Virus record (IMG/VR): IMGVR_UViG_3300021085_002860 | Location: 1-23,284 of that record | DNA: 23,284 bases | Direction: 5' to 3' (one strand) | From: a virus | Part shown: positions 1,125 to 21,903 of the stretch, piece by piece | Layout: every line of letters starts with the position of its first letter | How positions within the stretch are numbered: position 1 is the first letter of the stretch | Notes under the pieces: generated by a model | What the model saw: only the letters and a program-made list of their open reading frames with translations | Database searches by the model: none | What the model was told of the DNA's origin: nothing | Program-made: the position numbers and the translations under genes

Positions 1125-2852
1125 CTATTCGTCTAATATATTATCTTCATTTAACATACCTTTTAGTTCATGTAAATATTTTCTTTTTGATGAAATCCCA
1201 TTGATATATTTTAATGCCTTTTCTTCAGAAGTTGTATTTCTTTTAGCATCTCTTCTTTCTTTATCTCCTAAAGGGTCTCTACCAAGTGGATGTTTATCTT
1301 TTTTATAAGTTCCACCTTCTCTTGGTCTGCCACCTTTATCTTTTATTTCTTGTTTTATTTTTTCAATTGATTCTTCAATATCATCTGGCTCTTCATCTTC
1401 TTGTGCAGGGTCATTACCCTCATCTTCAATAGAACGGAATCTGAATCTATCTTTTAAATCATCTAACATCATAACTCTTTGTTCATCTGATTCTGCATCT
1501 GATAATTTAAATACATTATCATATACCCAATCTTTAGATAACATATTAAGAGATTGAATATCTTGAGCTAATCTAATTTTCTCACTCCAAAGATTTAATT
1601 TTTCTTGTTCATAAATAAATGATGGATTAACTAAGGATAATTCAAAATTAGTCATATCTGAATCAGTAATTCCTTGAGAGTATAAATGTACTATTGCAAT
1701 TTTAGTTAATTCAGATACTACTGTTCTCTGTATTCTTTCTATTGTTCTTGCAAATCTTACATCTTCTGCAGCTAGTGTTGCTTTACCACCTACATTTTCT
1801 TCATATCCTAAATAAGCTTTTGGAATCTTTAGAGCTGCAAATAATTTATTTTTTAGATAATCAATATCTTCTATACTTGCATATTCTAAACCAGAAAGAT
1901 TATCAATTTGTGTACCACTATCACCACCACGAACAGGAAGATAGAAATCTTCTGTTAGGTTTTGCATATTGTATTTTAAATTGTAATCACCAGTATTTCT
2001 ATCAACAAAAGGAACTTTCTTCATCTTGTTCATAATTCTTTGCATATAGTTATCTACTTCTGTTGGTGGAATATTACCGATATCAATTTTGAAAACTCTC
2101 TTTTCAGGTGCTCTCATAATTCTATGGATTAACATTGCATCTTCCATTAGAGATAATTGTTTCCACAATCTTCTTCCATTTTCAATCATTGATTTTCCAT
2201 ATGGTAACCAGTTTGTATCTGCTAATAATCTAAAGTGTGCAACTTCAAAGTTTTCATATTCTTCTTTTCCATTTGGGTCTTCCGTAATCTTAAACTTTAC
2301 TGAGTTTGGATTCGATGGGTCTGTTCTTTCTAATCTTTCTGTGTTGTAAACTGAATGAGGTGTAACATTTACGATACCTTTACCTTCAGCGATTTCTAAA
2401 CCTAAGAAGAAATCTCCATACTTACACATATTTCTTACCCATGGCCATAAGTTGAATTCAATATTAAGAACATCATAAAATAAGTTTCTTAATAAATCTT
2501 GTACCTTATCACTACTTGATACTATTGAAAGTGTATCACCAAATTCATTCTTTAGTGTTGATTCATCTGCGTATATATCTAATGCTGATGCTAATATTGG
2601 GTCGTTATCCATTGCATCAAAATCTCTAAAAACTTCTCTACGAACTTGTTGGTATGCCATTGATTGTGCACCACCTGCTTGTTCGAAGAAACTTTTTTGT
2701 AGTTTCGTGTATCTATCTCTTAATGAGGATAGATTCGTTTGTTGTCTTTCATCGGTATCAACAACTTTTCTCTTACCATCCTTATCAACAGTAACAACTG
2801 CTTGTGTACGAAAGAGTTTCGTTAATCTACCAAAAAATGAAGTATCTGCCAT
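1125..2852 (-). CDS. 20: Portal protein (T4 gp20 family)
   Basis: The dodecameric portal sits at the capsid vertex, nucleates prohead assembly, and is the channel through which terminase pumps DNA. The 575-residue length is close to T4 gp20 (524). Recognition rests on the central gp20 signature: RIMRAPEKRVFKIDIGN (about 244-260), then the D-x-x-TGDYNLKYNM segment, LTEDFYLPVRGG and the L-x-G turn, all in gp20 order. An upstream FNLWPWVRNMCKYGDFFLGLE segment also matches family style. The C-terminal 90 residues are acidic then basic (a KxGGRPREGGTYKK-like stretch) and end in MLNEDNILDE, which contains LNE, a possible prohead-protease motif. The gene starts at the ATG at 2852 with an AGGA site ten bases upstream, 41 bases after the 129-residue gene. 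Confidence 0.95.
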   Translation of the reverse strand: MADTSFFGRLTKLFRTQAVVTVDKDGKRKVVDTDERQQTNLSSLRDRYTKLQKSFFEQAGGAQSMAYQQVRREVFRDFDAMDNDPILASALDIYADESTLKNEFGDTLSIVSSSDKVQDLLRNLFYDVLNIEFNLWPWVRNMCKYGDFFLGLEIAEGKGIVNVTPHSVYNTERLERTDPSNPNSVKFKITEDPNGKEEYENFEVAHFRLLADTNWLPYGKSMIENGRRLWKQLSLMEDAMLIHRIMRAPEKRVFKIDIGNIPPTEVDNYMQRIMNKMKKVPFVDRNTGDYNLKYNMQNLTEDFYLPVRGGDSGTQIDNLSGLEYASIEDIDYLKNKLFAALKIPKAYLGYEENVGGKATLAAEDVRFARTIERIQRTVVSELTKIAIVHLYSQGITDSDMTNFELSLVNPSFIYEQEKLNLWSEKIRLAQDIQSLNMLSKDWVYDNVFKLSDAESDEQRVMMLDDLKDRFRFRSIEDEGNDPAQEDEEPDDIEESIEKIKQEIKDKGGRPREGGTYKKDKHPLGRDPLGDKERRDAKRNTTSEEKALKYINGISSKRKYLHELKGMLNEDNILDE

Positions 2853-2893: not shown

Positions 2894-3283
2894 TTACCAT
2901 TTTCTACAAGACCAGTATCTTGCTTTGTGTCTTGGTCCTGGTGAATCACAATTATGTCTAGCTCTAAATGCTTTTCTTGCATCTGGATTATTCTTTCGAA
3001 TAGACATTGTTTTTTCTCCTGATTTCTTTGCTGAACTTCCTCCATGTCCAAAGTTAACTTTTACAACGTTACCTTGTGGGTTTTTGACATATACCTTAAA
3101 TTTTTTAACATCACCTTGCATTGGTTTTCCAAGTTTAACTGTTCTACCTTGATACTCAGCTTCATTCATATCAGATTTGTATTCTTTCATGAACTCACAG
3201 AATTCTTTTATATCGTGATAATTTTCCACAGTATATTCTTCTGTGTATATTTCTTCGTTAAGTAAATTTTTTAATGATATCAT
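2894..3283 (-). CDS. 129-aa protein between terminase and portal, targeting-like N-terminus
   Basis: No established function. The first ten residues, MISLKNLLNE, form a short hydrophobic/amphipathic peptide ending in LNE. This resembles the capsid-targeting peptides of T4 internal head proteins, which end at a prohead-protease site. The C-terminal 45 residues are strongly basic and hold a distinctive block: NPDARKAFRARHNCDSPGPR followed by KARYWSCRKW at the extreme C-terminus. From memory, similar RHNC...YWSC endings occur in many T4-like marine phages. His110, Cys112 and Cys126 could bind a metal. A strong AAGGAG lies at 3292-3297, eight bases before the ATG at 3283. It occupies the place that sheath and tube genes (18, 19) hold in T4. 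A minor head-internal protein is my best guess. Confidence 0.85.
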   Translation of the reverse strand: MISLKNLLNEEIYTEEYTVENYHDIKEFCEFMKEYKSDMNEAEYQGRTVKLGKPMQGDVKKFKVYVKNPQGNVVKVNFGHGGSSAKKSGEKTMSIRKNNPDARKAFRARHNCDSPGPRHKARYWSCRKW

Positions 3284-3314: not shown

Positions 3315-4907
3315 TTATTTAATTAACCAAGTTAGGTCTTCATTACTATCTCCAACTCTCATTTTCCAAGGGTCATCTTCCATTGAAGAGTTACCTCCAA
3401 ATCCCATTCCACTAATATCTAAAGAGTGTGCTCCAATACCACCTAATGCTTGTTTTGTTAAATCAATTCCTTCTTGTCTTAATCTTAATGCAGTATCTCT
3501 AACCCATAATCCGATTGATAATGACATTGTTAAATCATCATTATAACCTCTCATAGCTTCAGCTCTGTTTCCACTCCATATAAATGTAAATAATTCATCT
3601 ATTGTTCTTTGTGAACGAATCGTTACTGATTTTTCTCTAATATATTGTTCCAACTTTGATATAATCAAAGGTCGTGTTTTGGAAGTTGTACTAAATCCTG
3701 CCGTTAATCCTCTATCTTGTGCTCTATATTTGTTTGTTAATTGATTTTCTACATCTACATACTTTAAATCCTTACTCATGTAGAAAAGATTCCCATATCC
3801 TCTATCAATTACTTGTTGTATTACTGCCCAACCAATATTTGCGTTCTCAATAACAAGTAATGCATTATTATATTCAGTTGAAAGTGATACAAGGAAGTTT
3901 CCAAAATCTTTTGTATCTAATTTACCTTTATATTCGGCAACTTGAGATGATTCTTCTATATCAATAACATGACATGCAGAATAATCCGAGGAATCTCCAC
4001 GAGCAACATCCGCTACAACCATATAAGCTTTATTATAGTTTGGATATTCCCATTTCCAAAGGTTTCCATCGAATCCTGTTTTCTCCATTGGTTCTTGTAC
4101 ATAAGATTCTTTATAAAACAAAAGGAGTTGTGGGTCTATCACAGTATCACCAGAAGAAACAAAATCACAATCACATTCTTGTGCCGCTCCTTTTGGTCCT
4201 AATAGTACCTCTTGTTCATCTCTCCAATTTTGGTCTCTTTCAGGATGAACACTCCAATGTAATCTAATTGAGTTAAATGTATTTGTTTGTTCTTCAGAAC
4301 CAACCCAAGTTTTGTGAAAGAAATTTCCGACACCATTTGGTGTTGAAAGGATAATCGCATTACCACCAGTCGATAGTGTTGATTGTGCTGATACCCAAAT
4401 ATCTTCAATCTTATCAATAAATGCCGCCTCATCAAATACTAATAGGGATAGTGCTTCAGAACGACCAGCATCTCCAGCGGCTGATGTTGCTTTTATCTGA
4501 GAACCATTCGAGTATCTCAGAGATAACTTATTATCCTCTACTGTTGTTTGTTTTAACCACGATGGTAAGTACTGATTCATTACACGAACCTTCGTTACAA
4601 GGTTCTTGGCAACTTCTTGTTTAGTTGCAATTACTAATACATTAAAATCTTGATTGAATAACATTTTCCAAAGTGAAAATCCCGCAGTTAAGGTAGAGAT
4701 ACCTGTTTGTCGAGATTTAAGGATAATATTGTATCTGTGTTCTGCAAATTGGTCTAATGTTCTTTCTTGAAATTGATATAAATGAAAAGGTATCTTACCA
4801 CGCACAGGATGTTGAATCATACAATATTTTTTCATAAAGTAGATTGGGTCTCCAGCACATTTCTGATACTCAAGTTTTATAATATCTTTTAAAGATTGTT
4901 TAGCCAT
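3315..4907 (-). CDS. 17: Terminase large subunit (T4 gp17 family)
   Basis: This is the ATPase-nuclease motor that cuts concatemeric phage DNA and packages it through the portal. Motifs appear in the expected order. The ATPase half has a Walker A-type SRQTGIST (65-72), Walker B LLVFDE (155-160) and the coupling motif STPNG (188-192). The RNase H-fold nuclease half has VVADVARGDSSDYS with Asp300, VIENANIGW with Glu354, and NDDLTMSLSIG with Asp457/458. These correspond to the catalytic acidic triad of gp17. At 530 residues it is somewhat shorter than T4 gp17 (610). It starts at the ATG at 4907, one base after the preceding stop codon, with an AGGA site inside the end of the upstream gene. No small-terminase candidate is obvious nearby. 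Confidence 0.97.
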   Translation of the reverse strand: MAKQSLKDIIKLEYQKCAGDPIYFMKKYCMIQHPVRGKIPFHLYQFQERTLDQFAEHRYNIILKSRQTGISTLTAGFSLWKMLFNQDFNVLVIATKQEVAKNLVTKVRVMNQYLPSWLKQTTVEDNKLSLRYSNGSQIKATSAAGDAGRSEALSLLVFDEAAFIDKIEDIWVSAQSTLSTGGNAIILSTPNGVGNFFHKTWVGSEEQTNTFNSIRLHWSVHPERDQNWRDEQEVLLGPKGAAQECDCDFVSSGDTVIDPQLLLFYKESYVQEPMEKTGFDGNLWKWEYPNYNKAYMVVADVARGDSSDYSACHVIDIEESSQVAEYKGKLDTKDFGNFLVSLSTEYNNALLVIENANIGWAVIQQVIDRGYGNLFYMSKDLKYVDVENQLTNKYRAQDRGLTAGFSTTSKTRPLIISKLEQYIREKSVTIRSQRTIDELFTFIWSGNRAEAMRGYNDDLTMSLSIGLWVRDTALRLRQEGIDLTKQALGGIGAHSLDISGMGFGGNSSMEDDPWKMRVGDSNEDLTWLIK

Positions 4908-6301: not shown

Positions 6302-9300
6302 TTAGAAGAAAATACCAAGTATTTGATTTACGGATGCAAATGTACCAGTAAGTTTAAAAGTATTTCCTTTATACAAGAACACGATACCTTCATTTGGTAC
6401 AATTTTTTTAGAACCACCAATAGAATTTAATCTACCAAGTTCCAATTTAAGTTTTTCTATCTTTTTTGGGTCACCCGATTTCTTAACATCTTTGATTGTT
6501 TTATCAATTCGTTTTTTCATATCACGAACTGCTGAATCAGGATTAACTGTAAGTGCTGATGAAGTAAATTCTAATACTTCTGCTCCAAGACCAAGGAAAA
6601 TCTGTTCGAACTTCATTAAATTTTTCTTACCAATCTTCTTTTGGTCATCTTTATCTGTTTTCTTAGCCCATTCTAATGTTTTTTCATCAGTAATGTTCTT
6701 TTTATCTAATCTAAACCCTTTATCCATGAATGCCCATCTCTTAACTAACCCCATTTTGGTTTTGTTATCGAGTGTTGATGGTGAATTTTTATCAACCCAT
6801 TGTTCCCACCATGATTGATGGTAGTTTGCAACACCATCAGTATCCTTTAAACCAAATTCTTTTTGTAGTTTAGATATCTGTGATGAGTATTTACTTCTTT
6901 TCTTTGATAAATCTTGTGATTTAGGTAGTTTTACAACAGGTGGGCCTTTGATTGTATAACTATCTTGTACATCTTTGTTAACTTGTTTAATCATACCAGC
7001 CAATATTCTAGCCGCATCACCATTCTCTCCAATTGCAACACCTTCTTCATTGAATTCCATAGTACCATGGAACACAAGTAACGCTTGACCATAAGGAATA
7101 ACGTTTACTGATGTTGGGTATATCACTTCAAGGTTCATGAAACACGCACCTTGTTTGAATATCTTATCTCTTTGTTTATCGTTAAGTGATTTGATTGCAT
7201 TTGAGAGGTCTTTCATTGCATAATTGTAAGCATCACTCAATCCACCCCTACCTTGGAACTTATCTGATACCCCTTGTATATCCAAAGCATTCTCACCTCT
7301 GTTTTTTAGGTGTCCTTTGTTTCTGGCCGCTACCAACCTACCATCTCTCCATGAAATAGCTAGTGCTTGACCATCTGTTTTCTCTCTTGTGAACTCTAAT
7401 GTACCTTCGAGTGCTCTATTTACGATATCTTTAAGTTGTCCAAAGGTTAAATTGATATCAGTATCAAATGGGTGAGACATATGTCCATACGCACCACCTT
7501 CTTGGAGTAATTTAGATTCGTTTATGTTTTCTTTGATTAGTTGTTGTGGTGTTTTAGTGTTCGGTAAAAACATTTCAACTAACTTATTATCAATATCACT
7601 TATTAATTGTTCTATTTCATTCATAAACTTTTCCTTTTCTTTATTTTTAATCCACAATCCTATTTCAGGTCCTTTGATATCAGATGGAGCATCCTTTCCA
7701 CCAATAGATAAGTTAAAGTTTACAAACTTTTTCATATCTTTTCCAATCAACTTACCAAATTTAAGGATTTGGTCATCTGATAAAGATGTTTTTTGTTGTA
7801 GTTTCTTGAATACTACAATTTCTTCTGGTCTAAAGTGTTGTAGTGATACTAAAAATACAATATTATTTTTTTCGTCATTAGAATAAGTTAATTTGTTTAA
7901 TTGTTTTCCTAATACCGAAGGTGAATTCTTTTTTAATAGTGATGCAATGAACAAAATATAATCATTATCCTTGATGTAAGGTTTAGATATTTTAAGATTT
8001 GGGAATATTAGTGAAGTGAATCCAATCTTATCATTCAACTCCATATACTTTTTAGTATCTTTAGCTGATTTGATTGATTTTATAACCTCATCTCTAACTC
8101 TTTCAAATGAAACTCCTTTAAGTGATGGGTCTTTTTGTAACGCATCAAGTAATTCTTTATCTAAGTTACCACCTAACCTTGCTTGGAATCTTAAAGCTCT
8201 TAGTTTTCTTAATGGGTCTTCATCAAATCTTTCTGATGCCTTACCAACTGTTCTAATGTTTTTCTTTTTAAGGTCTGCAATACCTCCAACTAAATCAACT
8301 ATCTCTTTTCTATCAATATCATAGAACAAAGCATTGATAGTTAAATCTCTTCTTCGTACATCACCCTCTATATCTGTATAATCAACCGATGAAGGTCTTC
8401 TACCTTTACCAATATCTTTTCTAAACGTTGCAATTTCATGTCCACCAACCATTACAACTCCGAATGATTTACCAACCTCAACAGTTTTCATTCCTAAATC
8501 TTTTGCAATCTTTAACACCTCATCTGGTTTTGCATCTGTTGCTAAATCAAAATCCTTTGGTGATTTACCAAGTATAGCATCTCTTACTGCTCCACCTACT
8601 ACATAAAGTTTCTTACCATTCTTTTTAAATCCTTTTTGGATTTTAATGATATCAGATGGTACTCTTAATTTAAAGTTTTTACTTTCATCTAATCCACTTC
8701 TATCGTGTTTAGAGAATTTACCTAATTTATCAAATGCTCTAAATGATTTTAGTTTATTTACTTTTTTAGGTGTCATTACAGATAGTTGTTTATATCTCAT
8801 GTGGTTTTTAACAATGTAAAATACATTTGCTGGATTACCACCAACTGATTCTATAAACTTTTTATACTTCTTTACTAAAGATGCTGATACTTTCTCATGT
8901 CCAAAGTGTGTAATGTGTCCTTTCTTTGGATGAATACCTGCAGTTTCATCTTTTCCTATATCATGGAACATTGCTGCTATTGCAATATCAATATCATCTT
9001 CTTTGATTGAACGATTTACAACTACGATTGTGTGTTTAAGAACATTTCCTTCAGGATGTTTATCTACTCTCTGTCCAAAGTTCTTTAGATTGTAAACTCT
9101 CTTTTGTAAATCAGAAGGCATTTTCTTAAATAACGATTTAAAATCTTTTATTCCTAAATCTTTTAAACTTTCTTCAATTGGTTCATATCCTCTTTTCTTA
9201 GTATCCTTTTCTTTCTCTTGATGTCCACCTTTTTTATCATCATCATCAAAATCAATTGTATCTGGTTCAGCGATTGAACCTCTTTTTGCATATGATGAAT

Positions 9301-11491
9301 ATGTGTGATGTTTATTGAAATCTTTTTCAGCTTCTGATGAAGGTTTACTACTCTTTACAGATTTAAACTTATCTGTTACCTTTGTTGGTAACGATTCCTT
9401 AATTACTTTATCTGATTTAAGTTTGTAATGTATATCTCTACCATCAGCATCTTTACCAAATCCTTTACCGATTACTTTTTTCCAAAGTAACTCTAAGAAC
9501 TCGGCCTTTTTTCTATAAGATAATCCTTTTAGTTTTTGATTGATTTGTTTTCTGTTCTTATAAACATACTTTTTGAAATCCATGTAAAAGAAATCATTAA
9601 CTTCCTTTATAGTATCGTATTGATATTCTTTATTAGAATCAGAATCTTTCCTATATTCCTTATTTCTTTTTTTGAACCTTTTCATATCCTCAGGTCCAGC
9701 ATATCCAATCATCAATTCATTGGCTTCTTCTTTATTAGTAAACTTCTGTACTTCTGCATCTCTTAATGCTGGTAAGAATCTAAATCTTGCTCTTTTAAGA
9801 ACTCTTTTCTTTTTTCTTAATACATTCTTATGAACTATCTTTGCTTGTTGTATAGATAATTCTGATTTTTTTAAACCTGGAAACAAATCTTTCATAAACT
9901 CATCATAAACTTGTAGATATGCTTTTTTGTATGCAATCTTTTTAAGTTTACCAAGAGATTTTCTTCTTTTCATTGTTCTTGCTCTTCTTCTTGCAATTTG
10001 AGCTCTTTTACCAGCCATCGCGGCTTTTCTTCTAAGTAATGCTGCAGGTCTTAATCTACCTTTACTTCTTTCTTCTATATCTACATCTTCGGATATACCC
10101 ATTTTCTCTTGCCACGAATCAAATGCATCAAAATCGTATTCTCCTTTTTGAGAATCCCATCCACACGAATGACATAAATACTTTTCACTATCATCAGATT
10201 CGATTTCCCATTGGTGATTACATTTTTCACACTTTACTTCTGTTCCTGCGAGTTCTGAAATGAATCCTTCTTTAACCATTCTAAAGGTAACCACTTTTCT
10301 ACCATTGATTGTTGGCATTCCATGTTCATCTTTACCGATTGTTTTAACAACTGTTTTCTTGTTCTTAAATCTACCAGTCATAATAGTATCCCCAACTTTA
10401 ATTGGTAGTACTATATTTTCATTTAAAGATGCTTCGTATTCTTCTTGGGCTTTTTTATCACCTTTTTGAGAATCTAGTGATTGTTCTTTTTCATCTTTGT
10501 TAATATCCAATCCCTTTACCAATTCGTAACCAACTAATGCCGCTTTACGAGTTACATGCTTAAACCATTTAGAATAAGCATCTGATGAATAGATATCAAC
10601 TTGGTTAGTTGCAGTTGTTGTACCAAGTACACCTGCTGGAAATGGAGTTACTGCTTTAACAGGTCCATTTGGGTATGTTGGATGGTCATAATAATCTTCT
10701 AATTCTTTAGTAGTAATCATATTTACCACTTCGTATCCAATTCTCTTTGCTCTCTCTACATTTATCTTAGAGAAAACATCGTAGTTTGGAAACATGAAGT
10801 TTGGCCCATCATCTGCTTGACCACTTCCCATTTTAGAACTCTCATTTAACAACCACTCTTCAATCATCTCTTTAGAAATTTCAATTCCCTCATCGAGTTT
10901 ATCAGTAATCATACTGAAGATAGTTGCATTAAACTTTCCATACGCTCTTTTCTTAAAGAAGTTCTTTTTCTGTTCATCAGAACCAACTGATAAACCATTT
11001 CTTACTTCTGTACCACTTACTGCACCACCAGACATTGGAGCTGCATAAACATATCCTCTATCTCTATATCCTTCCGATGGGTCTCCTTTATATGTTTGAA
11101 AGTATTTTCCACTATCAGGTCTTAATCTACTTTTATCTTTCTCGCCAACAACAGTTACAAATGCAGTTGTTTCTTCATCGAACTTTTTAAGAATTTCTGT
11201 GGGTTTGTATGGGTCTCTAACTTTATGTATTTTGGATTTTGGAATTCCAAACATAGTAGTCATAATTTTCACCTTTTCTTTGAAGTTAAAAGGTGATTTA
11301 GGTAATTGTACCTTATCAGATGTACCAACATAAACATTATCCTTACCGAACTTTTTGACAAGGTGTTGGTAAGTACCAGCATGTCCTTTGTGCATAGGCT
11401 GAAACCTACCCACATAGATAACTACTGTTTTTTTAATAGGATTCTTATCCTCCATTATACTCTCTACGAGAAATTTGGAAAGTTCATTCAT
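6302..11491 (-). CDS. Giant multi-enzyme polyprotein: NMNAT-like / Zn-ribbon / HD / CCA-NTase / ligase-like
   Basis: One uninterrupted 1729-residue frame. Residues 1-10 (MNELSKFLVE) look like a capsid-targeting peptide. Residues 21-205 are a nucleotidylyltransferase close to NadM-type NMNATs (GRFQPMHKGH 28-37; VSGTEVR 158-164). Residues 218-357 are an unknown domain and 360-410 a small beta domain. A zinc ribbon (C421/C424, C440/C443) leads into an Arg/Lys-rich segment (475-580) and a helical stretch (590-700). Residues 775-935 are an HD phosphohydrolase (H820, HD 843-844, H859, H865, H897). Residues 937-1318 are a CCA-adding/poly(A)-polymerase head (GGAVRD 966-971, DFDLAT 980-985, RRDLTINAL 1047-1055). 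Residues 1332-1729 are a ligase-like adenylyltransferase (EKTDGQ with Lys1371, NLEVIYP 1453-1459, EGIVF 1701-1705, FKLTG 1712-1716). [L/I]-x-E motifs lie between domains, suggesting prohead-protease processing and packaging in the virion. Start: ATG at 11491 with AAGGTG upstream. Confidence 0.92.
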   Translation of the reverse strand: MNELSKFLVESIMEDKNPIKKTVVIYVGRFQPMHKGHAGTYQHLVKKFGKDNVYVGTSDKVQLPKSPFNFKEKVKIMTTMFGIPKSKIHKVRDPYKPTEILKKFDEETTAFVTVVGEKDKSRLRPDSGKYFQTYKGDPSEGYRDRGYVYAAPMSGGAVSGTEVRNGLSVGSDEQKKNFFKKRAYGKFNATIFSMITDKLDEGIEISKEMIEEWLLNESSKMGSGQADDGPNFMFPNYDVFSKINVERAKRIGYEVVNMITTKELEDYYDHPTYPNGPVKAVTPFPAGVLGTTTATNQVDIYSSDAYSKWFKHVTRKAALVGYELVKGLDINKDEKEQSLDSQKGDKKAQEEYEASLNENIVLPIKVGDTIMTGRFKNKKTVVKTIGKDEHGMPTINGRKVVTFRMVKEGFISELAGTEVKCEKCNHQWEIESDDSEKYLCHSCGWDSQKGEYDFDAFDSWQEKMGISEDVDIEERSKGRLRPAALLRRKAAMAGKRAQIARRRARTMKRRKSLGKLKKIAYKKAYLQVYDEFMKDLFPGLKKSELSIQQAKIVHKNVLRKKKRVLKRARFRFLPALRDAEVQKFTNKEEANELMIGYAGPEDMKRFKKRNKEYRKDSDSNKEYQYDTIKEVNDFFYMDFKKYVYKNRKQINQKLKGLSYRKKAEFLELLWKKVIGKGFGKDADGRDIHYKLKSDKVIKESLPTKVTDKFKSVKSSKPSSEAEKDFNKHHTYSSYAKRGSIAEPDTIDFDDDDKKGGHQEKEKDTKKRGYEPIEESLKDLGIKDFKSLFKKMPSDLQKRVYNLKNFGQRVDKHPEGNVLKHTIVVVNRSIKEDDIDIAIAAMFHDIGKDETAGIHPKKGHITHFGHEKVSASLVKKYKKFIESVGGNPANVFYIVKNHMRYKQLSVMTPKKVNKLKSFRAFDKLGKFSKHDRSGLDESKNFKLRVPSDIIKIQKGFKKNGKKLYVVGGAVRDAILGKSPKDFDLATDAKPDEVLKIAKDLGMKTVEVGKSFGVVMVGGHEIATFRKDIGKGRRPSSVDYTDIEGDVRRRDLTINALFYDIDRKEIVDLVGGIADLKKKNIRTVGKASERFDEDPLRKLRALRFQARLGGNLDKELLDALQKDPSLKGVSFERVRDEVIKSIKSAKDTKKYMELNDKIGFTSLIFPNLKISKPYIKDNDYILFIASLLKKNSPSVLGKQLNKLTYSNDEKNNIVFLVSLQHFRPEEIVVFKKLQQKTSLSDDQILKFGKLIGKDMKKFVNFNLSIGGKDAPSDIKGPEIGLWIKNKEKEKFMNEIEQLISDIDNKLVEMFLPNTKTPQQLIKENINESKLLQEGGAYGHMSHPFDTDINLTFGQLKDIVNRALEGTLEFTREKTDGQALAISWRDGRLVAARNKGHLKNRGENALDIQGVSDKFQGRGGLSDAYNYAMKDLSNAIKSLNDKQRDKIFKQGACFMNLEVIYPTSVNVIPYGQALLVFHGTMEFNEEGVAIGENGDAARILAGMIKQVNKDVQDSYTIKGPPVVKLPKSQDLSKKRSKYSSQISKLQKEFGLKDTDGVANYHQSWWEQWVDKNSPSTLDNKTKMGLVKRWAFMDKGFRLDKKNITDEKTLEWAKKTDKDDQKKIGKKNLMKFEQIFLGLGAEVLEFTSSALTVNPDSAVRDMKKRIDKTIKDVKKSGDPKKIEKLKLELGRLNSIGGSKKIVPNEGIVFLYKGNTFKLTGTFASVNQILGIFF

Positions 11492-11520: not shown

Positions 11521-12570
11521 TTAATTATATAAATTAAAGAAAGCATGTCCAGTTTTATCCAATTCTAAATCATGTGAATTGTTATTTAAAAACTCTAAAT
11601 ATTCTGGATTTGTAAATTTGTTTGTTTTAGCTATATTAAGTGCCGTTTGTCTGTTTCTTTCTAACTTGTTTGATATCAAATCATATAGTTTATTATAATC
11701 TTTATCTTTTAACCTATCTAAGTTTTCACAAATACCAATTATTCTTTCTGTTCTTGTTTCTTTTGAATCAAATGAATAATCAAATATTTCATCATACAAC
11801 TCAAACCCAAATTCTTCTAATGTTTTATGAAATCCCTTATATGAATATGTAATAAATGGCTGACCAACTAATAATGGTTTACAAGTTTTTTCAGATATAC
11901 CTATTATTTCATCATCACTTTCGGTTACTAGATTTATCAAAGGATTTCCATAAGTTATATCGTGCCAATACCAAGACCATCCTTCTTGTTTAGAATCTAT
12001 GGTAAGTTTTTTATATTTGTTATCAAAATACTTAAATTCATAATCATATACATCCCCATCCATTAACCAACTATAATTACCATAAGATAGTAAATCGTAC
12101 TTAGATAAGGTATCCATCATTTCACATCTGAAATCATGTGGTTTATTATTTAAGTTTATAAATAAAGAACTTTTGGAATTGTTGGATATATTTTTAGATA
12201 CATTATCAATATTGTAATTTTTGTTTTCATAATGTTTATAAACTAAAAAGTTTAAAAAGTAAAGTGGACTATCAAAAAACTTTATATTAGATAATTCTTT
12301 TCTATTGTACCAACTTGATTGTTTTTTGTAAAAAGAAAGTGCAAAAATTAAAGTTAAGTTATATCTTACTAATTTATTATTAATTTCTTCAAAATTTTCA
12401 TGGTTAATTTCTCTTTCTTGCAAGTTTTCCATGTAAATATACTCACCCCCATCTAATATCACATTATGGATAAAAGAATTACTACAAGATGATTCATCAT
12501 ATTCTAGTATCATCTCTAGTATTGTATCAGGAGAACCCTGCCCAATATACTGATGAACTGATTTACCCAT
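11521..12570 (-). CDS. Putative glycosyltransferase, member 1 of a four-member family
   Basis: A 349-residue soluble protein. It shares two motif blocks with the products at 15128-16474, 20674-21888 and 21904-23109. Block 1 is LFINLNNKPHDFRCEMMD (about 136-153) followed by LLSYGNYSWL. Block 2 is NLVTES (213-218), SEKTCKP (226-232), then PFI, a Gly-Phe pair and a conserved Arg (about 273-276). Block 2 recalls the acceptor end of nucleotide-sugar-dependent fucosyltransferases (TEK followed by a Pro-containing strand), so transfer of a sugar from a nucleotide donor is plausible but not proven. It is the most divergent of the four: the Cys-x-Asn of block 1 is replaced by Phe-Ile-Asn. The ATG at 12570 follows the small upstream gene's stop by one base. 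Confidence 0.75.
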   Translation of the reverse strand: MGKSVHQYIGQGSPDTILEMILEYDESSCSNSFIHNVILDGGEYIYMENLQEREINHENFEEINNKLVRYNLTLIFALSFYKKQSSWYNRKELSNIKFFDSPLYFLNFLVYKHYENKNYNIDNVSKNISNNSKSSLFINLNNKPHDFRCEMMDTLSKYDLLSYGNYSWLMDGDVYDYEFKYFDNKYKKLTIDSKQEGWSWYWHDITYGNPLINLVTESDDEIIGISEKTCKPLLVGQPFITYSYKGFHKTLEEFGFELYDEIFDYSFDSKETRTERIIGICENLDRLKDKDYNKLYDLISNKLERNRQTALNIAKTNKFTNPEYLEFLNNNSHDLELDKTGHAFFNLYN

Positions 12571-12571
12571 A

Positions 12572-12703
12572 TTAATGATTTTTATAAATAAATGGGTCTC
12601 TTTTACGAAGTTCTTCTAATTTCTTTTTATATTGTTTTTGAAGTTTTCTTCTTTGTATTTTTTTTATTACCCAACCAAATAAAAAGTTATATATTTTTTT
12701 CAT
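12572..12703 (-). CDS. 43-aa basic protein ending PFIYKNH
   Basis: A small open frame in the only gap of the sugar cluster. It encodes 43 residues: a hydrophobic N-terminal patch (NFLFGWVI, 6-13), then a very basic helix (KKIQRRKLQKQYKKKLEELR) and the ending KRDPFIYKNH. The ATG at 12703 is four bases after the stop of the upstream TPP-enzyme gene, and its own stop ends one base before the next ATG, so it is packed like a real gene. From memory, short proteins with an LFGW...KRDPFIY pattern recur in sugar clusters of marine phages; I cannot verify that here. A membrane-surface-associated helper of the neighbouring transferases is a guess. Confidence 0.6.
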   Translation of the reverse strand: MKKIYNFLFGWVIKKIQRRKLQKQYKKKLEELRKRDPFIYKNH

Positions 12704-12707
12704 AATA

Positions 12708-13256
12708 TTAGTTTTTATAATATAATTCAGGATACTCTACTAGTATATGTATTCCCCCTTCGGATAAAGCCTTCTTATATGCTGGTAATATCTTTTCTGC
12801 AGTATCTAATTTTTCAATAGTACAATTTGTAACCATTTGTTTAAAAGCATCTGTGTAATCTGCTTTGTGTTGATGACCAGGGTCTAATGGTTTATCAGAA
12901 CCTTTACCAACTCGTACAATTACGTTTGGTCTCCATTCACCATCAGACATTACTTCTAATTTATCTAAATGATTAATTAATTGATTTGCTGCAAGAATAA
13001 CAAAATCCCATCTTGGATAAAAAGATATAACTTGATGGCCGGTCATTGCCAATCCAACCGTCATTCCCATTTGGGTTTCTTCCATTACTGGTGTTTCTAT
13101 CATTCTTTCTTTTGGTAATCCCTCAATAGTTTTACTCATTGGGTTACCATAATAAACTATCTGTTGTCCGATGAATATTGTTTTTTCATCTTCCATTGAA
13201 AGTTTCATTGCTTCAGTTAAAGCATCTAAGTACGGTGTAAATTCTGGTTGTGCCAT
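12708..13256 (-). CDS. TPP-enzyme pyrimidine-binding subunit (E1-beta/transketolase-like), compact
   Basis: This matches the pyrimidine-binding domain of E1-beta subunits of 2-oxoacid dehydrogenase-type enzymes. The core is ETPVMEETQMGMTVGLAM (54-71), with the cofactor-activating Glu expected at residue 59, then SFYPRWDFVILAANQLINHL (78-97), which parallels the DF...A.DQI.NH block, and a GHQHKADY loop (127-134). At 182 residues it lacks the C-terminal transketolase domain of normal E1-beta proteins (about 330 residues). It probably pairs with the E1-alpha-like product at 16483-17127 to make a split TPP enzyme. In sugar pathways such pairs can add a two-carbon unit from pyruvate to a keto-sugar (AviB1/AviB2 in avilamycin biosynthesis); that role here is inference. 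It starts with a TAATG overlap with the preceding gene. Confidence 0.85.
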   Translation of the reverse strand: MAQPEFTPYLDALTEAMKLSMEDEKTIFIGQQIVYYGNPMSKTIEGLPKERMIETPVMEETQMGMTVGLAMTGHQVISFYPRWDFVILAANQLINHLDKLEVMSDGEWRPNVIVRVGKGSDKPLDPGHQHKADYTDAFKQMVTNCTIEKLDTAEKILPAYKKALSEGGIHILVEYPELYYKN

Positions 13257-14185
13257 TAGTTGTTTTCTTTAAAATAGTTATATGTTCTTTTTACTCCTTC
13301 TTCAAATCCTGTTTGAGGAAGTAGTCCATTCTTTTCTTGTATTGTGGTATTCATTCTTCTTCTTGGTTCTCCATTTGGTTTAGAAGTATCCCAATTTACT
13401 TTTATATCTTTACCACTTACTTTTATAATTGTATCAACCATTCGTTTGATTGATATTTCTTCACCACTACCTAAATTTGTAGTGATATGTAAGTTATCTT
13501 CGTAACATTTAATTGTTGCATCAGCTACATCTCCCGCGTAGATGAAATCTCTTGTTGGTGTTCCATCTCCCCATCCTACAATCTCACCATCTGATTCATA
13601 AACCTTTTTGATATTAGCAGGTAGTGCCATTGCCCACTCACCAAAGTTATCATACTCACCAAAGATATTTGCTGGTCTTACAACTGTCCAATTTTTCCAA
13701 TTGTGTTGTACACCATATGCTTCTAAGTACAATTCTGGTACTCTCTTACTCCACGATGGATACCAATCATGTTGTGATGGTAGTGTTTTCCATACCGTAT
13801 CTTCAATGAATTCTGGTGCTGATTCATATACACCAACTGATGACATAAATACTAACCAAACATTTTTTCTAAAACAGTTTTCAATAATATTAAAGTTACC
13901 TTTAATAGATGGTTCTAAAAAATCAACAGGATTTTCTTTTGCTGTTTTGGGAGTTCCTTTAATACCAAACGAATTTATACATCCATCAAAATCATGCCAA
14001 TCAAACAATACAGATACTTTTTTTGTATCTCTTAAATCTAAATCATAAAATTTAAAATTTGTTCTTTTTTCTTTTGGTTCTTTTAAATCTACACCTACTA
14101 CAAAGTATCCTTTACTTATAAGTTTATTTACAATGTGAGTTCCAACTAAACCACTGCAACCTGTTACTAAAATTGTTTTACTCAT
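13256..14185 (-). CDS. NAD(P)-dependent sugar epimerase/reductase, GDP-fucose-synthase-like
   Basis: An extended short-chain dehydrogenase/reductase of normal length (309 residues). The Rossmann motif is GCSGLVG (9-15). Mid-protein SSVGVY (115-120) matches the catalytic-Ser strand. RPANIFGEYDNF (170-181) and WGDGTPTRDFIYAGDVA (205-221) match the substrate region of GDP-L-fucose synthase-type enzymes, as does DTSKPNGEPRRRMNT (266-280). The usual Y-x3-K is not in register: the segment reads WYPSWSK (141-147), so Tyr142 is five residues before Lys147 and Pro holds the expected Tyr position. With the GDP-mannose 4,6-dehydratase at the window's right end, a role in reducing or epimerising a GDP-4-keto-6-deoxy sugar is likely. 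It overlaps the SGNH gene by eight bases upstream. Confidence 0.88.
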   Translation of the reverse strand: MSKTILVTGCSGLVGTHIVNKLISKGYFVVGVDLKEPKEKRTNFKFYDLDLRDTKKVSVLFDWHDFDGCINSFGIKGTPKTAKENPVDFLEPSIKGNFNIIENCFRKNVWLVFMSSVGVYESAPEFIEDTVWKTLPSQHDWYPSWSKRVPELYLEAYGVQHNWKNWTVVRPANIFGEYDNFGEWAMALPANIKKVYESDGEIVGWGDGTPTRDFIYAGDVADATIKCYEDNLHITTNLGSGEEISIKRMVDTIIKVSGKDIKVNWDTSKPNGEPRRRMNTTIQEKNGLLPQTGFEEGVKRTYNYFKENN

Positions 14186-15131
14186 TTTCTATTTTTTTTA
14201 TAATTGATTTTGCCAAAACTTCATGACATCTTTTCGATGGGTGATTATCTTTAATTCTAGGATTAAATGTATCATCAGTAGAAATCATCATTTCTTCATT
14301 ATCTTCCATTAATTTTTGTATTGTATTATACCCATCTTTATAATCAAGTTTTATAATTCTATCAGTAAACCACTTATCATCCTTTATATAATGATAATTA
14401 ATATCCATCCAAATTAAAATTCTAACTTTAATTCCATTTTGTTCATACTTAATTAATTCTTTTTTTAATATTTTAGTTTTTTCTTTATAGAAAGAATCTT
14501 GCCACTCATCCAAACGTAAATTATTTTGCATTAACCACTCTATAAATAATTTATGAATTACAGGATTGGTTGGATTTGCAACTGAAATTCTGAAGGTTTG
14601 AGTATCCTTGTTCCAAAAATCATCATCCCATAATGAATTATCAGGAGTAAAATATGGCCCTACTGATTCAGAATTTTCTTGAATAATCTGTTTTTCTTCG
14701 TATGTAAGTTTAACATCTTTTATATTTACTTTAAAATCAAATGAATTTCTTTCAGTAACAGAAGTTTGAAATATTATATAATCTATATCATTATAATCTA
14801 AACAATCTTTTGGAGGATTCTTCATGACATGAGTTAACCAATTTAGATTTTCGTGGTCTTTATAAAATTCTCTATCAAAACATAATTTTAAAAATTTAAA
14901 AGAAATATCATCAGAACCTCCATTTGTACGCTTACTATATTCAAAGGTATTAAAGTGATTTGTAACTAACCTTGAAAATCTAATAGTATCTTTATATAAG
15001 ATATGAGAAACCTTAACTTTATCTTCAATATACTCACAATTTTTTGGATAATATATATCATCTAAATTTGAGTAAAACCACAATCCTTGTCCCCAAGTAA
15101 ATGAATCTCCTGTAAAAACTATTCCTTTCAT
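14178..15131 (-). CDS. SGNH/GDSL-family hydrolase
   Basis: A 317-residue protein with SGNH-hydrolase blocks: TGDSFTWGQG at the N-terminus (nucleophile Ser10), RTNGGSDD (68-75) supplying the Gly/Asn oxyanion region, and DNHPSKRCHEVLA (295-307) with the Asp295/His297 pair near the C-terminus. The middle 170 residues are not recognisable beyond the fold. No signal peptide is present, so it acts in the cytoplasm. In a sugar cluster such enzymes usually remove or transfer acetyl or other acyl groups on sugars; the exact substrate is unknown. The start forms an ATGA overlap with the preceding gene. Confidence 0.82.
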   Translation of the reverse strand: MKGIVFTGDSFTWGQGLWFYSNLDDIYYPKNCEYIEDKVKVSHILYKDTIRFSRLVTNHFNTFEYSKRTNGGSDDISFKFLKLCFDREFYKDHENLNWLTHVMKNPPKDCLDYNDIDYIIFQTSVTERNSFDFKVNIKDVKLTYEEKQIIQENSESVGPYFTPDNSLWDDDFWNKDTQTFRISVANPTNPVIHKLFIEWLMQNNLRLDEWQDSFYKEKTKILKKELIKYEQNGIKVRILIWMDINYHYIKDDKWFTDRIIKLDYKDGYNTIQKLMEDNEEMMISTDDTFNPRIKDNHPSKRCHEVLAKSIIKKIENE

Positions 15132-16474
15132 ATTAATTCATTAATAGGTTCACTAATAGGTTCACTTAAATCATATTTCTCCACTACTGCATCTAAACTT
15201 AAATTATCAATTGAAGATATAATCTCAGTAATAGCATCTACTCTTCTTTGTTTAGGATGTATTCTCTTTCTCCAAGTATTATGATTATGTTCAATTATTG
15301 GTCTCATCTCTTCTAACATTTCAACCAATTCCTTTTCACTTTTTTTATTTAAATCTTCTAGTATTTTTATAATCATATTTAATCTAGTATCCAAATCCAA
15401 CTCATCATCATAAGATTCATCCCACCACTTGTTAAATGTTTTATATCCTAATTTTTTAAGATATTTTAATGTATATGGTGAACTAATCATTAAAAAAGGC
15501 ATATATGCTGCTATTGGTTTAAATGTTTTTTCAGAAAAATATATTACGTTATGTTCTACGTTTGTTTCAGTAACAACCCATAAAAATGTATTTTTTGTAT
15601 TTTTAAAATTCATTATTTGACCGTGATAATCTCCTACTTCATTTCCATTCAATCCATATTTTTCCCAATCTAACTCATCTAATTCAGGTAAATGCATTGG
15701 AGTAAGATTATAAAAATTATTATATTCTTCTTCTGTAATTGAATAGTGTCTTGAATCAAACAACTCCCACATTTCATCCGAAGGAGGTAATTCTATACTT
15801 TGATTTAAAAATGATACATTTCCTCTTTCTAATAAATTTTGTTTAACTAATTTAGATACGAATAATAATCTACTAAGATGTCCTTTTCGATTATAACATA
15901 CAAACAACTTATCTATATTTTCTTTTTTTTCATATTTTTCAGGTAAATTAAAAGAATTTATATGTGTCTCTGATGGCTGTGTGAATGGAATACAAACTAA
16001 ATTAAATCTTTTCTTTTTACAAATTTGATTTGCTATTTGATTTTGATATACAAAAAATACACTTCCTTTTGGTAATTTTAGTTTTTTCATCATACTATTT
16101 AAATTTAGTAGTGAATATTCGGGGTCTCCCCATGGATGTAATCCACGACTTCCCCAATAACCATCATCCCCAATTGTAATAACCATTTTAGCCTTTTTAG
16201 TTCTTATATCGTTTAGAATAGTTTCTGGTAAATTTTTAAAAACAGTAAATGGCTCATCTTGTTTAAGAATTCTACTTGACCAAAAATCTTCAGGCTTAAA
16301 AAATCCAAATTGACAAGAAAATAAAACAATGTAAGATTTTACAGAATTGATAAGAGTATCATCTATAAAAGTTGCATTTTGTACATGCCTCATTCTTCCT
16401 TCCGAATTATTGATTAAGTTTGAATATTGAAACCCTTCAATAACTGCAGTTTTATTTTTAAAAATTACAGACAT
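15128..16474 (-). CDS. Putative glycosyltransferase, member 2 of the four-member family
   Basis: The longest family member (448 residues). Block 1 is FVCYNRKGHLSRLL (191-204) followed by NLLERGNVSFL. Block 2 is VVTETN (300-305), YFSEKTFKP (312-320), PFLMIS (326-331), then LGYKTF and Arg364. About 190 N-terminal residues, including DDGYWGSRGLHPWGDPEYS (103-121), are not shared with the other three, suggesting its own donor or acceptor domain. The C-terminus carries a short duplicated SEPI SEPI sequence. No membrane segment is present. The function is inferred from cluster context and weak resemblance to fucosyltransferase-type motifs. It ends in an ATGA overlap with the SGNH gene. Confidence 0.75.
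   Translation of the reverse strand: MSVIFKNKTAVIEGFQYSNLINNSEGRMRHVQNATFIDDTLINSVKSYIVLFSCQFGFFKPEDFWSSRILKQDEPFTVFKNLPETILNDIRTKKAKMVITIGDDGYWGSRGLHPWGDPEYSLLNLNSMMKKLKLPKGSVFFVYQNQIANQICKKKRFNLVCIPFTQPSETHINSFNLPEKYEKKENIDKLFVCYNRKGHLSRLLFVSKLVKQNLLERGNVSFLNQSIELPPSDEMWELFDSRHYSITEEEYNNFYNLTPMHLPELDELDWEKYGLNGNEVGDYHGQIMNFKNTKNTFLWVVTETNVEHNVIYFSEKTFKPIAAYMPFLMISSPYTLKYLKKLGYKTFNKWWDESYDDELDLDTRLNMIIKILEDLNKKSEKELVEMLEEMRPIIEHNHNTWRKRIHPKQRRVDAITEIISSIDNLSLDAVVEKYDLSEPISEPINELI
15142..15165. repeat. 12-bp perfect tandem duplication
   Basis: TAATAGGTTCAC occurs twice in a row in the 3' end of the transferase gene. It keeps the frame and encodes the repeated SEPI near the C-terminus. It is probably a replication-slippage duplication. 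Confidence 0.85.
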
Positions 16475-16482
16475 AAATTAAT

Positions 16483-17127
16483 TTAAAATACTACCCATTT
16501 GCCAGTACCATAATGTGGGTACTTTGATTCATACTTATAATACATTACATCTTCTGGTAATTCTCTCTGAATACCATTCCAAGTATCTAATGTTGGTGTG
16601 TTTGTACTTACACCATTATCCTCTACAATGAAATGAAGAGGTAAATCATAATTTCTTGCATACTTGTGAACTTCGTAAAAAATTCCACTTTCAAATGACA
16701 TATCTCCTAAGAAAACCCAAACCTTATCATTACCACCACTTTTCTTAATTGATTTTGCAACTCCCAATGATATAGGTAAAGTACCTGTTACAATTGCAGA
16801 TGCATAAAATTTAGAATCCTTATCTACGATAGTAATTGATTTACCATCAAGTATTTTTTGTTTTAGTTTTGATTCTTCTACTCCATGTAAAAGTGCATGA
16901 TAATGAGACCTCCAAGTTGAAAACACCCAATCAGTTGGGGATATTTTTTTGAATACTTCTATTAGTTGTTCTTCGTTACCATTTGATAAATGAATAGGTC
17001 CTGTTATTTCACCATTTTCCCAATGTGAAATAATATCATCTTCAAATGCAATTAATTCTTCTTTTGAGTAATTACCCGATTCCCACCTATCTTCATGGTA
17101 GTCTAAGTTTTTGATTTCTGTTTTCAT
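16483..17127 (-). CDS. TPP-binding subunit (E1-alpha/dehydrogenase E1-like), compact
   Basis: A compact version of the E1-alpha subunit. STWRSHYHALLHGV (70-83) matches the R-x-H-x2-LL-x-G block of E1-alpha proteins. SAIVTGTLPISLGVA (110-124) matches the substrate/cofactor strand. GDMSFESG (141-148), with Asn171 in VEDNGVSTNT, is the GD-x(n)-N diphosphate/Mg-binding motif of TPP enzymes. The protein stops about 40 residues after this motif, at 214 residues against roughly 320-360 for cellular E1-alpha, and about 60 residues precede the first conserved block. Its likely partner is the E1-beta-like gene at 12708-13256, four genes downstream. A chance for pyruvate- or sugar-derived two-carbon transfer is discussed in the findings. 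Five bases separate it from the preceding epimerase gene. Confidence 0.85.
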   Translation of the reverse strand: MKTEIKNLDYHEDRWESGNYSKEELIAFEDDIISHWENGEITGPIHLSNGNEEQLIEVFKKISPTDWVFSTWRSHYHALLHGVEESKLKQKILDGKSITIVDKDSKFYASAIVTGTLPISLGVAKSIKKSGGNDKVWVFLGDMSFESGIFYEVHKYARNYDLPLHFIVEDNGVSTNTPTLDTWNGIQRELPEDVMYYKYESKYPHYGTGKWVVF

Positions 17128-17132
17128 CTTTT

Positions 17133-17714
17133 TTATTTGTTTGGTTTATCTCTTTTAGATAATATTGGATTATCTGTTGGCCAATCTATGTTAAATCTTT
17201 TATCGTTCCAAAATACTGTACCTTGTTTATCATCATCGTAGTATTCACCTTGATATGCAAGTTTGTATTGGAAAATGGAATTATCTTCCATTACATAATG
17301 TCCATTTGCAAACATCGGTGGAATTAAAACTTGAGTACCTGTTTCAGGACCAATTATAAAAGATTCCCACTTACCATAGTTTGGTTGTTTTGGTCTTAAA
17401 TCCAAAACCACAAGATATAACTTACCATGAGGACATGAAATTAGTTTCCATGTTTTATCATCCCAATGTAACCCTCTTAAGACATTTTGTTTTGATTTTG
17501 AATATCTATCGTGATTAAACTTCAACCCTTCGTTTCTTTCACCAGCTGGTAATAATCTATCGTAGAAATCAGAATGATATGTTGTAGTAATCATTCCTCT
17601 ATATTCGTGATATATAGATGGTTGTATAATCTTTACTTGAGGCAAAACAGAACCATTGTAAAAGTGGAAATCATCCCAACTTCTTTCTTTGTAAAATATA
17701 CTTCTATTTTTCAT
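17133..17714 (-). CDS. RmlC-type nucleotide-sugar 3,5-epimerase
   Basis: A cupin-fold epimerase of the dTDP-4-dehydrorhamnose 3,5-epimerase family, of normal length (193 residues). Family landmarks: YRGMITTTYHSDFYD (38-52) in place of the RG-x-F-x-E block, NVLRGLHWD (77-85) with the catalytic His83, HGKLYLVVLDLR (96-107), QVLIPPMFANGHYVM (128-142), WNDKRFNIDWP (169-179) with Asp171, and ILSKRDK near the end. Asn137 sits where most family members have His in FAHG. Because the neighbouring genes handle GDP-mannose derivatives, the substrate may be a GDP-4-keto-deoxy sugar rather than dTDP-4-keto-rhamnose. RmlC-fold DdahB/MlghB enzymes of Campylobacter do this on GDP-heptose. It starts with a TAATG overlap. 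Confidence 0.88.
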   Translation of the reverse strand: MKNRSIFYKERSWDDFHFYNGSVLPQVKIIQPSIYHEYRGMITTTYHSDFYDRLLPAGERNEGLKFNHDRYSKSKQNVLRGLHWDDKTWKLISCPHGKLYLVVLDLRPKQPNYGKWESFIIGPETGTQVLIPPMFANGHYVMEDNSIFQYKLAYQGEYYDDDKQGTVFWNDKRFNIDWPTDNPILSKRDKPNK

Positions 17715-18463
17715 TATAACAATTCTTTATTAATTATACTTACTCCTTTTTGCTGAACAACTTGAGTTGAACATTTATTTGCAAATTCAAGAGATTCTTC
17801 AATTGAACGAGTCTGTATATATTTAAATATAAGACCTGCCAAAAAACTATCTCCAGCTCCAGCAACATCCTTTACACCAACATCTTTGGTTGGATAATTT
17901 TTTCCATTCCAATCACATCCATTTGGGCCTCGTGTAATAATTGTTTTTTCTTTTAATAATACATTACTATCTATCTGAGTTTTGCTTCTTAGATATTCAT
18001 TATAATTTATCTTTATATAAGATATGTACTTACACCAACTTCCAAGTTTTTTCTTTGTATCTAAAAAAGTTGGACAATTACATTTTGATGATATTTCTTC
18101 TATATCGGATTTTGATAAGAATCCTTTATCATAATCTGCAAATACAACCAAATCAAATTCATCTGTATTTGGCAGTTCTGTTAAATTAAGATTAGAAACT
18201 TTATCATTTTCATCTATTCGTAATAAAATGTAATTATAAGAATCATCAACATATCTTATTTTTGTAACTTCTTCAGTATTACAAACCAAATGAGTATCAA
18301 CTCCAAGTGCTTTTAGATTCAATTGAACATTTTCAGCCATACCTTTGGAATAAGTTTCTCTCAATGGTTTAATGACAGGTACTGGTGCCTCTGGTGATAA
18401 TCTTAAAACATCACCATAAATAAAAACATCATCACAACTCTCTCCTATTACTAATACTTTCAT
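17714..18463 (-). CDS. PfkB-family sugar kinase, HldE/RfaE domain-I-like
   Basis: A compact ribokinase-fold kinase. The N-terminus (IGESCDDVFIYG then RLSPEAPVPV, 6-30) closely follows the heptose-7-phosphate kinase half of HldE. GMAENVQLNL (41-50) is the sugar-binding block. DVAGAGDSF (199-207) is the PfkB signature with catalytic Asp205. At 249 residues it is some 60 shorter than the HldE kinase domain, and the HldE cytidylyltransferase half is absent. The probable role is phosphorylation of a heptose or related sugar for the surface-sugar pathway; the exact substrate cannot be read from the sequence. Two bases separate it from the upstream transferase gene, and its stop forms TAATG with the epimerase start. 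Confidence 0.87.
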   Translation of the reverse strand: MKVLVIGESCDDVFIYGDVLRLSPEAPVPVIKPLRETYSKGMAENVQLNLKALGVDTHLVCNTEEVTKIRYVDDSYNYILLRIDENDKVSNLNLTELPNTDEFDLVVFADYDKGFLSKSDIEEISSKCNCPTFLDTKKKLGSWCKYISYIKINYNEYLRSKTQIDSNVLLKEKTIITRGPNGCDWNGKNYPTKDVGVKDVAGAGDSFLAGLIFKYIQTRSIEESLEFANKCSTQVVQQKGVSIINKELL

Positions 18464-18465
18464 AT

Positions 18466-21888: not shown

Positions 21889-21903
21889 GTTGTATATATA
21901 TAT

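Follow-up and report, generated by a model that had tools for sequence, protein, structure and literature searches.

A head-cluster polyprotein of a T4-related phage as a candidate precursor of protease-processed virion cargo

Introduction

T4 IPI, IPII, IPIII and Alt share a targeting peptide at the N-terminus, about 10 residues long and ending in [LI]xE (PMC9958956, PMC3012670, PMC5694885, PMC12373910). The T4 internal proteins are injected counter-defence factors (PMC12373910, PMC3012670), and gp21 processes Alt at ITE-6 and LTE-619, i.e. after a hydrophobic-x-E motif (PMC5694885). Polyvalent proteins join 2-15 disparate domains in one phage polypeptide, for which packaging and injection are predicted, and their architectures change (Iyer et al. 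2017, PMC5512222); the authors likened them to the polyproteins of RNA viruses that embedded peptidases release. Phages are also known to make NAD+ as a counter-defence and to carry RNA-repair sets, in both cases as free enzymes (PMC9503650, PMC7824862, PMC12774641). In the literature covered here, which is incomplete, we found no NAD or RNA-repair enzymes combined with injected cargo in a protease-processed polyprotein.

Here we describe a polyprotein gene from a 23,284-base IMG/VR virus record (hereinafter the window, i.e. the whole stretch of DNA analysed). The polyprotein falls between the T4 internal proteins and the polyvalent proteins.

Results

A polyprotein gene in the head cluster

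The unbroken 1729-residue frame reported in a preliminary description is open throughout and lies on the minus strand, which that description left unsaid (Table 1). In the direction of transcription, the gene, which lies in the head cluster, is followed by two small genes, the terminase large subunit gene, a 129-aa gene and the portal gene. The terminase is nearest to that of Microcystis phage Mel-JY01 (56%), followed by Flavobacterium phage immuto (54%), and the phage is therefore T4-related; for Bacteroidota as its host this is only a hint. Neither the window nor any of eight relative loci contains a tRNA gene.

The frame is not an assembly chimera, as had been considered, because relatives in independent assemblies match it end to end: one (L001) aligns over residues 1-1729 at 87%, and others at about 80-84%. 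Median dN/dS is 0.10-0.32 across the nine non-ligase modules measured, with dS near saturation in divergent pairs. This indicates purifying selection and rules out a decayed fusion. With the motifs kept as well, the catalytic residues are intact, as first described.

A long stretch of minus-strand genes of nucleotide-sugar or glycan type adjoins the head cluster and contains two epimerases, a dTDP-sugar 3,5-epimerase-like gene, a kinase-like gene and several unknowns. Inside this sugar-metabolism cassette, two genes about 3 kb apart match separate parts of a single PHROG (phrog_34187), a pattern that would fit a thiamine-dependent enzyme divided between them.

Table 1. Features of the window; residue numbers refer to the polyprotein.
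Feature	Coordinates	Strand	Remarks
Portal protein	1125..2852	-	head-cluster context
129-aa gene starting MISLKNLLNE	2894..3283	-	second candidate head-cargo gene
Terminase large subunit	3315..4907	-	head-cluster context
Polyprotein gene	6302..11491	-	1729 codons + stop; full-length relatives exist
Capsid-targeting-like peptide, residues 1-14 MNELSKFLVESIME	11450..11491	-	motifs end at residues 10 and 14
NMN adenylyltransferase-like module, residues 20-205 (GRFQPMHKGH, SGTEVR)	10877..11434	-	Pfam, PDB profile matches
DDGP module (unknown), residues 218-353	10433..10840	-	after motif LNE at 217
Small VGDTIMTGRFKNKK module ("KOW" by look only), residues 359-408	10268..10417	-	LNE at 358, VKE at 408
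Zinc-ribbon-like module, residues 414-462	10106..10252	-	CxxC...CxxC; after motif ISE at 413
Arg/Lys-rich basic module, residues 475-590	9722..10069	-	after motif IEE at 474
YP and FFY small modules (function unknown), residues 591-699	9395..9721	-	IKE at 630 between, IKE at 699 ends
Predicted HD phosphohydrolase, residues 775-936	8684..9169	-	flanked by IEE at 774, LDE at 936
Predicted CCA-type tRNA nucleotidyltransferase, residues 937-1292	7616..8683	-	flanked by LDE at 936, MNE at 1292
Linker, residues 1293-1331	7499..7615	-	LVE at 1306, IKE at 1321, INE at 1325, LQE at 1331
RNA-ligase-like covalent nucleotidyltransferase, residues 1332-1729	6305..7498	-	EKTDG, NLEVIYP, EGIVF, FKLTG
Nucleotide-sugar/glycan-type genes	11521..23109	-	adjoin head cluster
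phrog_34187 match	12708..13256	-	C-terminal part
phrog_34187 match	16483..17127	-	N-terminal part

Nucleotidyltransferase, HD and zinc-ribbon modules

The three enzyme calls made earlier for the NMNAT-like, HD and CCA-type domains are borne out by profile searches. The NMNAT module, which carries HxGH and SGTxxR-type motifs, matches Pfam CTP_transf_like at residues 25-112 (E 2.6e-5), and its family profile matches solved NMN adenylyltransferases in the PDB at E 1e-7. It stays below the NCBIfam equivalog cut-offs, and NMN as its substrate is thus a prediction. In one NMNAT clade of the relatives (alignment A4, e.g. L247, L258), the sequence is GRFQPFGPHH instead of GRFQPFHKGH; the first His of HxGH is lost and the rest is kept, which makes catalysis in this clade doubtful.

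The CCA module matches PolyA_pol in Pfam at residues 962-1080 (E 4.5e-30) and solved CCA-adding enzymes at E 3e-33. It carries the GGAVRD, DFDLAT and RRD motifs of the class II CCA-adding/poly(A) head domain. It too stays below the NCBIfam equivalog cut-offs, and specificity for CCA as opposed to poly(A) is a prediction. The HD module matches Pfam HD at residues 827-902 (E 3e-7); in the PDB it comes closest to the HD portions of a poly(A) polymerase (E 0.0014), and the HD module of one relative (L062) aligns to positions 250-350 of TIGR02692. In the window protein, HD sits before the nucleotidyltransferase, with a motif between them.

For the zinc ribbon, the CxxC...CxxC pattern is present at about residues 419-444, and profile support fell short (HypA and zinc-ribbon matches in Pfam are sub-threshold). 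The predicted structure of the DDGP module is unusable (pLDDT 51).

A probable divergent RNA-ligase-like domain at the C-terminus

The KxDG ligase-like domain of the preliminary description stands as RNA-ligase-like at the level of its family, and the window protein alone gives no match to the Pfam RNA-ligase models. In 44 homologues, the EKxDG, ARN, NLEVIYP (E), EGIVF and KLTG residues are invariant or nearly so. Specifically, domain residues K41, D43, G44, E125, E371, G372 and K383 are invariant in the 44 sequences, and motifs I (KxDG), III, IV and V are present. The Pfam family that the largest number of members match is RNA_ligase (PF09414), with weak matches in 17 of the 44 (best E 0.0048). 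The domain has no family of its own in Pfam, NCBIfam or PHROG.

The AlphaFold2 model of the domain has a pLDDT of 80.6. Its 20 best PDB fold matches are all RNA ligases, including archaeal RNA ligases, a fungal tRNA ligase, T4 Rnl1, Naegleria RNA ligase and T4 Rnl2, each match being weak (E 0.011 or worse). Profile alignment (hhalign) with T4 RnlA and RnlB places motif I in register, and for RnlA motifs Ia and III as well; because the scores are not above those of unrelated T4 proteins (ranks 15 and 7 of 72), this alignment is unusable as proof. We consider it quite likely that the domain represents a divergent RNA-ligase-like family. In bacterial genomes it occurs on five MAG contigs only, which are probably misbinned phage, and it therefore looks like a phage family.

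Shuffled cassettes in the relatives

Relatives numbered 119 in one scan, at least 582 in a profile scan and 304 in a scan from Mel-JY01, the sets overlapping. As judged by their sequences, reshuffled versions of the enzyme string are carried by hundreds of related phages. The 93 complete proteins with NMNAT and ligase range from 639 to 2106 aa and represent 41 architectures. All 93 end with the ligase, and in 75 no recognised module precedes NMNAT, while inner cassettes are gained, lost and reordered. CCA occurs without HD and HD without CCA, with at least 10 state changes each on the ligase tree (a quick tree, counted by parsimony). The order also varies: HD-CCA in the window protein, CCA-HD in L178, and CCA ahead of the basic module in L045 and L066.

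Further cassettes of the relatives include an AAA_33/zeta-type P-loop kinase, DUF5661 and a Zn_protease-type domain, and ParB-like and HExxH segments are seen by eye in L038. In a sister clade (L224, L188, L194, L234), the P-loop kinase cassette (AAA_33/zeta-toxin type) is found in the N-terminal parts; it could act as a polynucleotide kinase alongside the ligase. For the LR756508 protein, no relatives were found in viral contigs. NadV, the usual partner of phage NMNAT, was found in only 2 of 10 relatives, which leads us to reject it as an obligate partner.

Prohead-protease motifs at module borders

The sequences were scanned for the T4 prohead-protease motif, [LIVM]xE. In T4 itself, the scan recovers the known sites: the only motif of IPII and of IPIII ends at residue 10, that of gp23 at 65, and Alt has motifs at 6 and 619. 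The degraded protein gp22 has 21 motifs vs 11 expected, and 12 non-packaged T4 proteins have 101 vs 95 expected. Because the mature part of Alt holds seven [LIVM]xE motifs, the motif is not proof of a cut.

In 78 non-redundant relatives with automatic HMM borders, the motif occurs 6.77 times per 100 aa in linkers vs 0.45 in cores, a 15-fold ratio. The same ratio is 0.7-1.7-fold for control motifs and 2.8-fold for the reversed motif, and the enrichment is specific to [LIVM]xE, not shared by [LIVM]xD or polar-x-E. In the window protein alone, linkers carry the motif at 16 times the density of cores (core borders partly hand-set), and most control motifs are flat. Its joined cores contain 5 motifs vs 17.2 expected (p 0.0005). 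Thirteen other proteins of the window, taken together, show no depletion (87 vs 72 expected).

All recognised borders carry the motif, except the basic/YP border (about residue 590). Immediately upstream of the ligase, 36 of 37 independent contexts end in [LIVM]xE, with a background of 1.3%; those three residues could be the ligase domain's own, so this count is less independent than the linker/core ratio. In one ligase clade (L214, L223, L227, L252, L255-L257), LLLM precedes the ligase instead of an E-ending motif, and these proteins may be uncut before the ligase or cut elsewhere. BLAST HSP ends, taken as module borders, gave a weak signal (18% vs 8% with a motif within 3 aa) because such ends are fuzzy; HMM borders were used instead.

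A targeting-like N-terminus and gp21 in related head clusters

The N-terminal peptide of the window protein resembles a T4 capsid-targeting sequence. A motif ends at residues 8-22 in 47 of 49 distinct family N-termini, vs 40 of 116 background ORFs. The family N-termini share a form, e.g. MNELSKFLVE/SIME/, MGKLINEWVTE/SILTE/ and MKKLTEWLTKPFLEE/ (slashes follow motifs).

The domains can also be separate genes in relatives, a check that the preliminary description had put forward. A stand-alone ligase gene is found in L117-L120 and L130 and starts with MIRL.KLLNE/VLL.E/GGAYGH or close to it (also MIRL.K.LNEVLLKE/GGAYGH); in L118, this gene (414 aa) directly follows a 1298-aa gene for the rest of the polyprotein. 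In L028, L063 and L128, the targeting string of the stand-alone ligase, start Met included, lies inside the polyprotein, which is direct evidence that separately targeted genes were fused.

In relatives, the gene for gp21 (Peptidase S77) lies downstream. Of two sets of larger relative contigs, 11 of 14 and 9 of 10 encode gp21, and 9 of the 14 encode MCP; in the present phage both would lie beyond the 23-kb window. The MCP propeptide of relatives ends in LLDE/ATATG (QLLDE/ATATG in G001). The G001 head cluster contains gp21 and more genes with starts of the targeting form (MIKLTDLLQE, MIKLTQLMNE, MISLKNLLNE). Several of its genes (L107; 6118-7665, 8891-10705, 10716-11468 and 11453-12484) combine targeting-like starts with inter-segment motifs such as ESVNE/A or ESVNE/G, and this cluster may encode more cargo polyproteins beside the window-type one. 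In immuto, a small gene (L084; 13189-13947) starts with MKKSQLRQIIKE and comprises DUF5661 and a second segment, which is weakly like the T4 RegB endoribonuclease (E 0.0056, below cut-off). Segments like this second one recur as cassettes in the L038, L045 and L062 polyproteins.

Discussion

The preliminary description presented the protein as a single odd fusion. Its enzyme assignments hold; the lone, finished multi-enzyme gives way to a member of a large shuffled family with protease motifs at its borders and a targeting-like N-terminus, and the product is probably a precursor. We propose, as the simplest and likely reading, that the polyprotein is a gp21-processed virion-cargo precursor, whose products would be injected and, in the first minutes of infection, restore NAD+ and carry out tRNA/RNA repair. 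Specifically, MNELSKFLVESIME would act as a T4-type capsid-targeting sequence and draw the whole chain into the prohead core, where gp21 would cut after [LIVM]xE at the module borders to yield about ten individual products, namely NMN adenylyltransferase, HD phosphohydrolase, CCA-adding and RNA-ligase-like enzymes, together with a zinc ribbon, a basic protein and small modules of unknown function. The sequences make a strong case for packaging and cleavage; the enzyme functions are predicted from the domains. Weighing against this reading are the motifs within mature Alt, the motif-free basic/YP border, the ligase clade with LLLM, the position of gp21 beyond the window, the weakness of each single ligase match and the scarcity of NadV among relatives.

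The released proteins would then presumably enter the host together with the DNA and act against its defences. NMNAT would restore NAD+ before early phage gene expression, against NAD-depleting defences. In tRNA mending, HD would strip 2',3'-cyclic or 3' phosphates, the CCA enzyme would rebuild the 3' end, and the ligase would rejoin the halves, which would counter tRNA-cutting defences before early phage genes are on.

It is unlikely that the protein is packaged through its N-terminus and injected whole, as one multi-domain chain whose E-containing linkers are merely flexible. Multi-domain injected proteins have been proposed to be common (PMC5512222), and Alt shows that motifs can remain uncut. 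However, the linker enrichment is confined to [LIVM]xE, cores avoid the motif, and the ligase stands as a separate gene in five of the loci described above. Highly improbable, in our view, is an ordinary early cytoplasmic NAD/tRNA multi-enzyme that is made after infection and stays unpackaged. Free phage NadM/NadR, CCA enzymes and RNA ligases are indeed made in the host (PMC9503650, PMC7824862), but the present gene is placed among head genes and its product has an N-terminus of the targeting form. Motif avoidance inside modules matters only if the protein meets gp21, which likewise counts against a non-packaged enzyme.

T4 core proteins are largely degraded by gp21 (PMC9958956), and one NMNAT clade has lost an active-site His, as a protein serving mainly as scaffold or core structure might if enzyme folds had been recruited as bulk without needed catalysis. 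Such a role is very unlikely here: active-site residues hardly vary across the ligase family, those of the window clade are intact, the low dN/dS speaks against it, and the modules avoid cut motifs, whereas a relative's scaffold-like protein is full of them (36 vs 24 expected).

Returning to the processed precursor, we lean on balance towards a more general view, namely that tailed phages use polyproteins truly processed by the capsid protease, in which exchangeable cassettes preload virions with RNA-repair, NAD-restoring and other counter-defence enzymes, with a logic like that of RNA viruses. If so, one gene would program a pre-packed enzyme kit that acts ahead of phage transcription, and this would help explain how phages respond to defences that rapidly deplete NAD or cleave tRNA. 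The rule for cut motifs, i.e. borders rich and interiors poor, allows T4-like genomes to be searched by sequence alone for virion cargo and for cargo modules that lie hidden. The shuffled cassettes form a large candidate counter-defence set, including a ligase-like family missing from Pfam, NCBIfam and PHROGs.

The likeness to the T4 internal proteins and Alt lies in the N-terminal peptide, in a head protease of the same family, encoded by relatives, and in variable accessory cargo with counter-defence roles. T4 cargo, in contrast, is one protein per gene, trimmed at its ends only, while the window protein has many enzymes per chain with motifs between them; its NAD and RNA-repair enzymes are also unlike T4 internal-protein cargo. 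With polyvalent proteins the family shares disparate activities in one polypeptide and changing architectures. ParB-like, zincin-like and RNase-like domains of polyvalent proteins may recur in relatives, some of which contain DUF5661, Zn_protease or the by-eye HExxH and ParB-like segments. By Pfam, the window protein has no catalogue-typical polyvalent domain or embedded peptidase; we therefore suggest that it works like a polyvalent protein and do not claim membership of the catalogue. In the searched text of PMC5512222, NMNAT and CCA enzyme are unmentioned, and 2H domains have no reported association with RNA ligase. The release of polyvalent proteins is attributed to embedded peptidases, whereas in the present family gp21 likely acts in trans, with motifs at every border but one.

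The 'cytidylyltransferase like protein' of Mel-JY01 (WWT39297.1) has NMNAT and the same ligase, lies near the terminase gene and carries IIAE/GG before the ligase; at only 639 aa, it differs in having no middle cassette. The same inferred activities are known from phage NadV/NadM/NadR salvage and jumbo-phage RNA-repair sets (PMC9503650, PMC7824862). Those are free enzymes made in the host, whereas in the window they are modules of one proposed head-cluster precursor.
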